Shown: positions 14,567 to 64,000 of the stretch, piece by piece
Position numbering within the stretch: position 1 is the stretch's first letter
Layout of the letters: every line of letters starts with the position of its first letter
Source of the DNA: Asterochloris sp. CNOR1
Lineage: Eukaryota > Chlorophyta > Trebouxiophyceae > Trebouxiales > Trebouxiaceae
Reading direction: 5' to 3'
DNA: 64,000 bases
Assembly (NCBI GenBank): GCA_963969365.1
Contig: OZ017746.1
Location: forward strand, 248,001 to 312,000
Notes under the pieces: generated by a model
Told to the model about the DNA's origin: nothing
Databases searched by the model: none
What the model saw: the letters and a program-made list of their open reading frames with translations, nothing else
Made by a program: the position numbers and the translations under genes

Positions 14567-17500
14567 TCACCAATCCCCAACTGTGGAGGACACGGTCCGC
14601 TCGCGCATGTGATACCCGGTGTGCAGCAGCTCCTGTGCAGCAGGGCTGTGCACAGCACCATGCACCCACTGTCTATACAGCAGGGGCACGACGGGGTTGT
14701 CTGCAGGATGCCGGAGGATGACATCCTGGTGGTGGTACTTGGTGTCCAGCTCATTCAGCAGCTGCTTGGAGGTCTGACCCTGCCCCGCCTTGGCCTGGCC
14801 GCCGCCGTTCAGGCAGCCTGAGGGACATGCCATGACCTCCACAAAATGGTACTCGCATGCCCGCCGCTTGATCTTGCGCATGAGCGTCTGGATGTTGCGA
14901 AAGCCGTAGGCAGCGGCAAAGCGCAGCGCAGGCTTGCCCTCAACCTCCAGGCTGACCTCCTGGAAGTCTGGATTGCGCAGCTGCTTCATGGGCAGCGGCC
15001 CCAGGGGCAGGTCTCGGCCGAAGAGCTGGCGGCTGGCTGTGCGGAATATGAACTCCAGGTAGCCGCCTGCAGGGCATGAAGCTCTGCTCCTCTTCTTTGG
15101 GTCAGCTGCCAGCATCATACAGATTGTAAAATGCCAGGCTGCCGCAGTCTGCAGGGCGGTGTGCCCCTGCCCTGTGCTGGTTGGCTAGGTGATCAGAGAC
15201 TGGCAGCCACTGCTGCTGGGGCTAGGGACAGTGACAACTGCATGGGCAGCCAGCTGGGACGCCAGTGCCTCAGGAATGTCTGTGTCCAAGCCAGATGATG
15301 ACTGGCAAGACGAGTCCGGTTGCATAAAAAGCAGTGGCAGGCACAGCAGGACTGCTGGTCCTGTTTGAGCTATGAAGCGGGCTCAGGGGTAGAACAATGG
15401 ACCAGACAGCACTGTAGGGGGAGCAGGATGTCTGCATTGGCGGCATTGCTGGCAGCACAGATGGGTGGCTCAAAGATCATAATGTTGTATATGTGGTAGA
15501 AATGTTAATCTGCCACAACAAGTGCCAGATGCAGACGGAGGTGCAGCAACCTGTGCAAAACAGCGCCTGGGAGGCAGCAGCTGAACAGCAGCTGAGTTGG
15601 GGCCCCACCTGAGCCGCCAGGGACTCCATACAGCTTGCCCTGCTCGTCCACGCTGCTCAGAACACTGTCCAGCGGGGCCTCAGGAACGTCCTGAAGGTCC
15701 AGGATGCCTCTCTGCTGCAGCAGTTGCTGCAACTCGCCCGAGGTCAGCACAGAGTCTGTCTCTGGGGTGTCTGTCTCTGCAGGGGCAGTGGGCAGACAGT
15801 GAGACAGCTTGCTTGATTCCGCACTCCGGCAGCCTCTAGGTTGTCTCTCTCAGCAGGGGCAGCACACCGGGCAGTGACAGAGACTGAAGGTCATACGTGC
15901 TGCCCTGTCTTGCTCAATTCAGATGGCCCCCAGAAGGGTGGTTCCAGGCAGTACATGTGCTGTCAAAGCACAGCTAGGAACATTGGCTCAATCTGATTGC
16001 AGGTACCGCACCGACCTTCATGCCAGGCAAGAGCTGCCCTGAGTGGGTGCCACATGAACAACCCACCTGGCAGCTTGAAGTCATCTCTTGCTCCCTCCAG
16101 CTTCTTGTCGTAGCAGGGCATGATGGCACAGTGGTATACCCGGCTGGGTGACAGACCCAGCTGCCTGCAGAGGTGGCGCTTGACGATGGTGCCCATGACA
16201 GCCTGCAGGGGCAGTCAGGTGTGGACACAATTGGTGGGCAGCCATGCTGGTGCCCAGCAAAGCTTGCAGGTGCAGGCATGGACAGGGTTGAGGGCAGGCT
16301 ATGCTGGTGCCGATGAAAGCTGGCAGGTGCAGGCGTCGACAGGGTTGTGGGCAGCTGTGCTGGTGCCAACTGGAAGCTGGCAGGTGCAGGCAATTTAATA
16401 AGCCCAGTAATTGAATTGGGTGTGGACATGATGTTTAGCAACTGGTGACTGCAGTCTTGCAAAGGAAGTGCAGATGTTGCACCAGACTGCTGCTGCAGTG
16501 GTCAGATCACCAGATCAAGGCCAAGGCGGACGGAGACTGGCCGCCTGGTGGTTGAGCTGAAAATTCCAGAGGGCAACTTCGTCCGAGCAGGGCCATGATG
16601 ACACGAAACTGCTGTCATCAGGCAGTACAAGCTGGCACCAAAGCAGATGAGCTCACTGAAGGGTTGAAAGGCCACTCATGTCTGACAGAGGGTATGGGGC
16701 CTGTGCAGCCAGCGGGTGCTCACCTGAGGGCTCTTGGTGGTGCTGATGTAGGGCAGCACATAGTCGCCATGCGTCTTCTCTGCGTAACACACCCAGCCCG
16801 GGCACGCTGAGGCTAGCATGGGCAGCGGCGGCCCCTGACTAGCATCCTGGCTGGGCCGGGAGGCACCTCTGGGAAGGCGAGGGAATGGCTGCTGCCAAGA
16901 TGCTGCTGGAGGAGGCGCCGGTGCTTGATGCCAACCATTGGCAATGGCAGGTACCTGCGTGCCATGCCCAGCGGGCTGCCTTGTTCCCTCGTCCTTGGAA
17001 TGGTACGGCTCTAGGCTCTGCTGCTGGGCAGCACCTGCAGCCTGCTCTCTATCAGATGCACTGCCCGGCTGAGGGCCGGGTAACCCTGATGCCTGCTGCT
17101 GCACCCCGCTCTGCGCTGTCACCGACGCTGCCTGGGCTTGTTGTGTCGCCAACTGAGGGTGGGCAGCCAGGTACCGCGCACAGAACTCCTGGGCTGCCTC
17201 CAGCAGAGCCAGGTCGCGGCTGCAGCTGGTGTCGTACACCTGCCGGACGCCGAGGCCCTTCAGAAAGTGGGTCAGCCGCCTGAAGGTTTCTGCTGGGGAC
17301 ATGTTGTGCAGCGCCGCCAGGGAGGCACGGCTCTGAGGCGAGACTGCAAGCAAGGCATAGAAATGAGTGGGGTCCAGGCAGAAGCAGGGGCTGATGAAGC
17401 TTAGCAACCCGTTGCTTCCAGCACACGCTGTCAGCTCCTTATCATCACGGTTTGAGATCCCCTTGAGCTTCACGCAGATGAGTTTCCACATGCCCCACAT

Positions 17501-61739: not shown

Positions 61740-64000
61740 TCATTCCATATTGTGCAATCGAAGCATGCCTGGGTGGTGGACTGCCAGAAGGAAAGCCTGT
61801 GTCAGGGCCTGGGCTGCCTGCACCTGCAGGATGCTGCCATTGATCTCCAGGCACCTGTCGGTGCTGCCAGGGCTGCTGGGCGGGTGCAGCTTGACCCGGG
61901 CCCCTGAAATCTGCAGAGGGCACCGCCAGCAATGAGCCTTCCAGCATTTAAGTTGCAGCTGATCTGCTGCTGGCGAGAGGTGGAGGAACTGCATTCCACA
62001 AAACTTCCCATCTGACTGCGCCCGCTTCGCACAAGGACGACACCTTCCGCAGGGCCATGCAGTCTTGCAGGCCAGCAAGCCCCTGGGCCCACCTGACGGA
62101 TCTGCTGGATGTTGCAGCCCTGGCGTCCCAGCACGCTGCCCACCTGCACCCCTGACAGCCCCAGCATGGCTGTCACGCTGCCCGGCTGCAGGCCTGCCAT
62201 CTGCAGCTGCCGCAGGCAATGCTAAGGCCATGCATCAAGCATCAGGGCAGCACATAGAGCACAGAATGTCTCAGCAGTTGGACATGACTTGCTCCAAGGC
62301 AGCCAGGTCGGAAACACTTGCGCTGCCTCAAAAGCAAGAGTGCAATGCTTGCCTGCCCAGGGAGAGGCTGCACAGGCTGCTGCATGGGCTGCTGCATCTG
62401 CAGGTCTGGGCTGCCCGCCAGCATGGGCTGACCCAACATGGCTGCCAGTGGGGTGCTGCCCGTCTGAAGGCCCCACATGGGCAGCAGGCTGGGCTGGAGC
62501 TGCAACCCCTGCGCCTCAGGTGCCCCCTCTGTTGCTGCAAGGCGGGTTGCCGCACGCACCTGCAGACGCAAGGCTGGCGTTGCTGGCTGCAGTACAAGGG
62601 CGGACACATACATTTCGGCGCTGCAGCATGTTGCAGAAACCTATGTCGGTGTCTGTGAGCAGCTTGAGTGAGCATGGGGACAGGCCAAGCATCCACAGCG
62701 CACAACAGGAGTCAGCCATGACTTGTGCACTCTCACAATTATCTGGCGCCCTGGAGAGCAGGCTCCCCACCGGCTCTCCACCTTAACGGCAATGTACCAC
62801 CCCAAGCAGTGCTCGGCCCACCTGCCACCCCCGCAGCAGGCTTCCAACCTGGCGCACAGCCATCAGGCACTGCATGTGCGTGCCCTCCATCTGCACGACC
62901 TGCTCGGCGTCGGCCGGGGCTAGCATGGGCCCGCGATCGGTGCCCCCGAACACGTGCACCTGGCACCCCGTCAGCGCTCGGACCTGGGCCACCACTGTGC
63001 CTCCGTGGCCCAGCACGCAGCCCACCTGCAGGAGATTGAACGCATGAGTTACCTTCCAACAAAAGGCAAGAGGTGGGGAGACAAAGAAAAGGGCAGGACA
63101 CCACCTGCAGGCGCTGGTGTGTGTTGGGCAAGTTCAGCAGCATGTCCGCGCTCAGTGCTCACAACTCTCAGCACAAATTCCAGCTGCAGCGCAGCGGGGT
63201 GCAGGCAGCCGCATCTGTGGGATGAAGCAGTGGGTAGACTGGCAGGTTGCCAAGAGAAAGAGAGTCAATAAGGCTGGAAGTCCAGCACGCAGATGGGTTG
63301 ACCGGCAGCTTTGCAAAAGAAACAGGGTCAATAAGACTGGAAGGCCAGCACGCAGATTAGTAGACAGGCAGCTTGGCAAGAGAAAGAGGGTCAATACCGC
63401 TGGAACTCCAGCACGCAGCCCATCTGCAATGCACGGTTGTGGTCCCAACAGTGGCGACTGTTGGCGCAGCAGTCGCTGTTTGGCATGTGAAATGGAGCGG
63501 ACGCCTCTCATACTGCCCAGATCTACATGCAAAGCTTGCAGTCCCCCTGGACACATGTGTGACATGATGTGCACAGAGCAGACTGCAGCTGGTGCTGGCT
63601 TGCAGCCTCTCCAAAGCCTTGTCATTGCCACTGTCCACTGGCCCGCACGCCACCCTACCTGGTTGGAGGTGACCAGCAGCCGCAGGACCTGCATTTCGGG
63701 TTTGTCTTCCTCATCTGCTGTGTCCCAGGCCAGGGCGGCTGCGCAGCAGCGCAGCAGGGCCTCCTCTGCAGGACTGTAGGCTGTGGCTGGAGGCTCCAGG
63801 CTGGAGATGGCCACCACACGCTCCTCACTGCCTGCAGTAATCCAACGATAAAGGAGTTGTGAGACGAGGGACTGTAGGCTGTGGCAGGAGGCTCCAGGCT
63901 GGGGATGGCCACCACACGCTCCTCCCTGCCTGCCGTGGCTCGAACAAAATGTTGCAGCTTGGCGCAGCGCAGGTCTGGTGAGTGGACTCACTGCCCAAGC
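61740..64000 (-). CDS. KH-domain RNA-binding protein (PCBP/HEN4-like), 5' end outside window
   Basis: The gene enters from the right edge. Exon 63659-63831 (SEERVVAISSLEPPATAYSP ... MQVLRLLVTSNQ) joins in phase to 62849-63025 (VGCVLGHGGTVVAQVRALTG ... QMEGTHMQCLMAVRQ), one KH domain with GxxG loop GHGG. An Ala/Gln/Pro-rich linker follows (near 62335-62560, LQPSLLPMWGLQTG and MQQPMQQPVQPLPGQ). Another KH domain is built from GVQVGSVLGRQGCNIQQIRQ (near 62110-62160, GxxG = GRQG), joined to ISGARVKLHPP ... STDRCLEINGSILQVQAAQA, ending HNME at 61740. Such proteins bind C-rich single-stranded RNA in the nucleus or cytoplasm. The upstream exon fragment CAKLQHFVRATAG at the window edge is in frame through a 98-nt intron. 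Confidence 0.87.
63237..63430 (-). repeat. 63-bp tandem repeat, about 3 units, inside a KH-gene intron, sharing the next exon's edge
   Basis: GTCAATA-containing units lie about 63 bp apart (63264, 63327, 63390). Each carries CCAGCACGCAG. The same string, as CCAGCACGCAGCCCATCTGC, ends the array at about 63409. CCAGCACGCAGCCCACCTGC is also the real acceptor and exon start at about 63010-63029. The repeat is therefore probably built from copies of that exon edge. The minus-strand frame happens to stay open (LRAGLPALLTLFLL repeated), because 63 is a multiple of three. Confidence 0.8.
63772..63935 (-). repeat. 98-bp tandem duplication that appears to form a GC-AG intron in the KH gene
   Basis: ACTGTAGGCTGTGGCxGGAG, then GCTCCAGGCTGGxGATGGCC and CACCACACGCTCCTC, occurs at 63773 and at 63871, a 98-bp period with only a few differences. 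On the minus strand the upstream copy is continuous with CAKLQHFVRATAG then REERVVAIPSLEPP. The downstream copy reads SEERVVAISSLEPP and continues into the KH exons. Reading through both copies breaks the frame (98 is not a multiple of 3). Removal of 63832-63929 (GC...AG, 98 nt) restores it exactly. Confidence 0.85.

Follow-up and report, generated by a model that had tools for sequence, protein, structure and literature searches.

Short tandem duplications that copy an exon edge and its splice site into the adjoining intron recur through a 64-kb stretch of the green alga Asterochloris sp. CNOR1 (contig OZ017746.1, positions 248,001 to 312,000; hereafter the window). The window has a G+C content of 58.6% and holds 12 predicted genes, including a NAR1-like gene, a gene named SUZ12 in the original prediction, a gene at 23702, a CDKA-like kinase, importin-11, and a gene for a KH protein. 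The assembly comprises 56,383,464 bases in 21 contigs. The genome of Asterochloris glomerata is described as 56 Mb long, with 56-62% G+C over 98% of the genome and 9 introns per gene (PMC6652019). We analyzed 304 kb in total, consisting of the window, the adjoining 200 kb, and 40 kb from another contig. RNA families and tRNAs were searched for in the window and none were found.

Copied splice junctions in the window

A self-trained, two-strand gene finder applied to the 304 kb yielded 49 accepted genes with 574 introns and 1148 junctions. It was used in place of a single-strand finder, which merged genes across 195 kb and was dropped. All junctions and used splice sites given here are predictions of these gene models. 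The donor consensus was CAG/GTGAGC and the acceptor a sharp CTGCAG/G. The acceptor hexamer before the exon was unusually sharp, with T at 90% at position -5 and G at 93% at -4.

A strict case was any real junction whose copy falls entirely within the intron it borders. By this definition, 54 of 1148 junctions (20 donors and 34 acceptors), spread over 27 of the 49 genes, have been copied. Pairing exon edges with the introns of other genes gave 0 matches in 22,960 comparisons (20 x 1148), while 40 of 1148 matched their own intron beyond 60 nt. Common splice motifs or codon composition therefore fail to explain the signal. Under a broader count of 106 junction matches, 27 had a donor followed by its intron copy and 41 had an intron copy followed by the acceptor, which together make up the 68 matches in the two tolerated layouts. 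A further 37 involved more than one junction, exons, or unlabelled DNA, in part with doubtful small exons. The sites in the window are as follows.

15717..15882, minus strand: NAR1-like gene; the intron holds a diverged copy (70%) of acceptor 15776 that has lost its AG
16187..16392, minus strand: NAR1-like gene; array of ~57-bp units across acceptor 16202, with 16 nt in the exon and the remainder in the intron
17794..17917, minus strand: NAR1-like gene; acceptor 17827 with an intron copy bearing CAG at lag 67
20023..20235, plus strand: SUZ12 (name from the original prediction); acceptor 20215/20216 with an upstream intron copy of CTGCAG and the exon edge
26037..26177, plus strand: gene at 23702; array of 50-bp units (2.8 copies at 96% identity) that begins 12 nt ahead of donor 26048
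36544..36711, minus strand: CDKA-like kinase; array of 41 bp x 4 across donor 36673/36674
37333..37566, minus strand: CDKA-like kinase; donor 37530 with an intron copy at lag 152 that retains GT
45637..45870, plus strand: importin-11; weak copies of an exon edge near predicted acceptor 45828, with a gapped score of 44, below the cut-off of 46
46118..46525, plus strand: importin-11; an exon end with its donor repeated at lags 114 and 326 and again in between, the used donor being uncertain
47842..48114, plus strand: importin-11; intron copies, at lags 124 and 235, of the exon end with donor 47874
63227..63418, minus strand: KH gene; array of 63 bp x 3.1, internal to an intron, the closest predicted exon end being 212 bp away
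63771..63936, minus strand: KH gene; exon edge at acceptor 63831 with a 68-bp copy at 94% and a 30-bp spacer

Seven of the nine junction duplications named in the original prediction are clear (16203, 20015, 26041, 36544, 46118, 47845, and 63772), while the one at 45680 is weak and the one at 63237 lies inside an intron. Its statement that most genes of the window are affected agrees with our count of 7 of 12 predicted genes having at least one strict case, for a total of 14 junctions. At acceptor 20215/20216, the stretch 20179-20235 matches 20023-20080, and a longer, older match lies farther upstream. Donor 26048 is copied intact in its 50-bp array. The CDKA exon edge FGVPVRAYTHE at donor 36673/36674 is supported by alignment to CDK2, and the exon end at donor 47874 agrees with an importin-11 homologue. 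The 68-bp KH unit is nearly all exonic, with an intron part of just 7 nt.

Two predicted genes probably each fuse two: 18897-26838 joins SUZ12 to the gene at 23702, and 59075-68043 joins the KH protein to a WD40 protein (Pfam). The closest relatives of importin-11 are from green algae, the top one being from [Myrmecia] bisecta at 40% identity. Between 45828 and 46695, an importin-11 exon end occurs in several open-frame copies; the last comes with a strong donor and an acceptor-like CTGCAG of its own, which leaves room for alternative exons.

Form and proposed origin of the duplications

Local self-similarity was far more common than in shuffled sequence. Over a 264-kb contiguous stretch, an ungapped scan at lags of 15-400 with low complexity removed found 191 local self-similarities, versus 3 and 0 in two shuffles. 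Gapped local repeats (score cut-off 46) numbered 163, versus 7, 3, and 1 in three shuffles. The final gapped list misses 3 strong ungapped matches and a first gapped list missed 7 of 129, with nearly the same counts; the bootstrap and the intron-length comparison given below rest on the first list. Repeats were almost always direct (191 direct versus 4 inverted), with lags mostly below 300 bp and falling off above. At longer range, there were 24 direct matches at lags of 400-1600 bp, 17 of them at 1300-1600. Among the most identical pairs (at least 92%), 12 of 18 were adjacent copies.

The repeat loci are unrelated in sequence, with a single similar pair at 1e-4 among 120 merged loci. Three arrays searched against the 56.4-Mb assembly each matched their own place only, in a search that skips very common words. 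On these grounds we rejected a mobile or introner-like element, and the view in the original prediction that a process rather than a mobile element is at work is upheld.

Detectable local duplications occupy 10.2% of intron bases. Intergenic DNA is poor in them, at 1.9% of bases. Outside the window, further clear junction cases include three kinesin acceptors and two SDHA acceptors. A perfect 205-bp tandem duplication (207/207 matching) lies across a predicted acceptor at L006:3098-3509 (contig C1 355098-355509) and is probably very recent. An intron of a PGK-like gene (phosphoglycerate kinase by eye; L013:7100-7760) holds an array of ~100-bp units that is single-copy in the assembly, and its units bear acceptor-like CAG/GTCATCATGG copies.

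The short, head-to-tail, adjacent layout of patch-type duplications made by break repair is also the layout found here. Small tandem duplications are described as forming at staggered breaks, with similar plant work cited in the same paper, and they share with ours the direct orientation, lengths of tens to hundreds of bases, and short overhangs (PMC8355091), although in our case the mechanism is deduced from the form of the sequence. Young pairs of two copies had overhangs of 0-13 bp at their unit ends, a range compatible with microhomology, but these could be partial third copies. Base composition at unit ends revealed no motif.

We consider it probable that tandem duplications arising from break repair survive at junctions because splicing continues at the original, outer site and the copy is absorbed into the intron. 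Under this model, short head-to-tail duplications with units mostly of ~20-300 bp would strike gene bodies through error-prone repair of staggered DNA breaks, an origin suggested by their form. A duplication containing a splice junction would be tolerated, with the spliceosome keeping to the outer site. The second copy, exon edge and decoy splice site included, would then turn into intron and decay. The outcome would be longer introns, rich in decoys and in remnants resembling exons. The sequence directly shows the duplications with their direct orientation, lengths, and mutual unrelatedness, their placement on one side of the junction, and the decoys they keep. Splicing at the outer site is deduced from the gene models and, for six junctions, also from protein homology. 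Slippage, R-loops, and splicing-linked breaks are causes that cannot be told apart in the present data.

Placement of duplications relative to splice junctions

Duplications crossed 46 of 574 donors and 60 of 574 acceptors, or 106 of 1148 junctions, compared with 31 of 438 intron centres, 16 of 345 exon centres, and 5 of 276 intergenic points. Junctions were crossed more often than exon centres (p = 0.001, on nearly identical earlier counts). Start and stop codons, used as additional controls, were crossed in 1 of 49 cases each, a sample without power. In point-by-point profiles junctions resembled intron interiors, and an excess was visible only against simulations. Such a comparison is informative because a duplication internal to an intron leaves two copies there and a junction-spanning one leaves only one, such that a uniform process should yield fewer junction cases.

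Using the actual lengths of exons and introns, we simulated duplications that fall uniformly and decay neutrally, with equal-rate substitutions, perfect gene models, and settings hand-picked near the observed intron-internal level. The simulation sets consisted of 4 runs, 7x4, 3x8, 4x24 (one biased), 3x16, 4x8, and a main set of 6x20 (two biased). The observed ratio of junction to intron-internal cases was 54/29 = 1.86, while uniform simulations gave 0.76-1.00 across four settings and attained the observed value in 1 of 80 replicates. Other uniform settings gave 0.65-0.84, and on the 213 best-supported introns 71 of 72 uniform replicates fell below the observation. A simulated junction bias of 4 gave a mean ratio of 1.96. 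Bootstrapping genes placed the observed ratio between 1.15 and 3.50, the lower end being near simulated values. Unit starts were also concentrated at exon edges, with 72 in the final 60 nt of exons versus means of 17-24 in uniform models; within introns, 3 fell in the first 10 nt and 37 at 40-200 nt.

These simulations suggest that junction-spanning events may exceed the expectation of a uniform process ~2-4x, through higher frequency or longer preservation, an estimate that is model-dependent. The original prediction had tied the process to splice junctions. This link is partly supported: an excess emerges against the uniform simulations and in the placement of unit starts, whereas on the prediction's own test the raw rates exceed those of exon centres but do not differ significantly from those of intron centres. 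The stronger claim, that splice junctions are hot spots of tandem duplication and that introns grow from their edges by recopying exon edge and splice site, is one we hold only tentatively and regard as possible but doubtful. It would show itself in units whose starts cluster in the final 60 nt of exons and all but avoid positions 10-40 nt into introns.

Several observations weigh against our interpretation. The difference between junctions and intron centres was not significant (Fisher p = 0.16, on nearly identical earlier counts). Arrays detected by TRF with a period of at least 15 showed no junction excess (13 junction, 25 intron, 14 exon, and 5 intergenic). A junction bias of 2.5 yielded a mean ratio of just 1.52, below that observed, and only 2 unit starts lay 10-40 nt into introns versus 5-10 in uniform and biased models alike. 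Pairs with at least 85% identity comprised 11 junction and 9 intron-internal cases, which places the excess among older copies, where preservation may account for it. Finally, the scarcity of duplications at intergenic points would not be predicted by a purely neutral, genome-wide process, although that DNA is short and partly regulatory.

Much of this would fit uniform neutral tandem duplication unlinked to junctions, with junction cases as by-products that stay visible longer because the exon copy is conserved. The similar raw crossing of junctions and intron centres, the TRF arrays, the slight excess among young pairs, and the single uniform replicate that attained the observed ratio all speak for this account. 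It is strained by the 79 of 80 replicates that did not reach the observed ratio, by the best-supported introns and the other uniform settings, and by the number of units starting in exon edges, and we judge it a serious but rather unlikely alternative.

Copies could instead serve as alternative splice sites or exon ends and be retained by selection for that reason. Decoy sites are indeed strong: 14 of 20 donor and 17 of 32 acceptor copies scored above the tenth percentile of real sites, and 13 of 20 and 17 of 32, respectively, above the 95th percentile of GT or AG sites in introns. In-frame stops in the copies of 54 introns were few (4 of 638 codons versus ~11 under a simple neutral model), but that expectation disregards base-composition bias. 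Retention was close to neutral, with GT kept in 15 of 20 donor copies (12.9 expected) and AG in 23 of 32 acceptor copies (19.6 expected). Mismatches between exon edge and copy were flat across codon positions (136/657, 136/662, and 155/647; p = 0.33) rather than concentrated at the third, and 17 of 68 lags were multiples of three, with no excess. This is as expected of a non-coding copy and makes retention by selection improbable. A self-trained finder might also place exon ends on repeats, thereby creating junction cases as artefacts. The models are computational predictions, importin-11 has doubtful micro-exons, two models seem to fuse genes as noted above, and the SDHA model aligns over residues 27-277 and 340-688 but leaves residues 278-339 (62 aa) without counterpart. 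However, the repeats themselves are independent of gene models, and six junction cases (two each in CDKA, SDHA, and kinesin) lie inside protein alignments to solved structures. The alignment of the CDKA model with human CDK2 covers residues 80-370 and has a single short gap, and the kinesin alignment spans residues 125-508. By these alignments most junctions of the three genes are right, although not every model is perfect. Moreover, the ratio to intron centres climbed with exon score, from 0.66 overall to 0.91-1.09 in subsets scoring above 5, 8, and 12, which were picked after seeing the whole set. We therefore consider an artefact quite improbable. Most improbable of all is classical intron gain, in which an exonic AGGT is duplicated and the donor arises in one copy and the acceptor in the next. 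This mechanism is known in other eukaryotes and likewise combines a short intragenic tandem duplication with splicing (PMC3443670), but its donor-then-acceptor layout occurred in 1 of 106 junction matches here.

Known systems and the growth of introns

Copying of this type is already known. In Chlamydomonas and Volvox, tandem repeats are described as densest in introns, and repeats lie toward intron ends in all 31 species studied, most strongly in algae (Zhao et al. 2013, PMC3887541). These repeats resemble ours in their proximity to intron-exon junctions, but they have units of 1-50 bp, are mostly short motifs (GT/AC), and were placed by normalized intron position; copies of exon edge plus splice site are not described there. 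A tandem duplication holding one intron-exon boundary is described in the potato RdRp gene (PMC4974935). There, one gene acquired a new intron and an inserted exon, whereas the boundary-spanning units found here at 54 of 1148 junctions are frequent and the copy apparently lies within an old intron. Human duplicated genes offer minisatellite-like boundary arrays with elongation of both exons and introns and surplus splice sites (PMC2812944), although those arrays are variable, belong to recent segmental duplications, have ~30-bp units, and have RNA support. Frequent copying of splice junctions into the introns of one genome was not described in any work found by our search, which was at abstract level and had most subscription papers outside its reach. 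What appears new is that ~5% of junctions have a recognizable intron copy, along with signs of a possible junction bias. The gain of introns through tandem duplication is reportedly treated by Rogers in 1989, Gao and Lynch in 2009, and Hellsten in 2011, and small tandem duplications in rice are said to be the subject of work by Vaughn and Bennetzen in 2014.

Introns with a junction copy had a median length of 448 bp (n = 52) versus 223 bp (n = 522) for the others, in part because long introns offer more room for copies. Combined with the share of intron bases in local duplications, this agrees with the expectation in the original prediction that such duplication lengthens introns, while the GT and AG retained in copies bear out its surplus of splice sites within them.

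There is little documentation of intron lengthening that does not involve transposons. If ~1 in 20 junctions carries a detectable copy of itself, a single genome would allow individual events to be followed in the growth of introns, in the supply of decoy sites, and in the raw material for alternative splicing. A real junction bias, if true, would point to splicing or transcription linked with DNA breakage.

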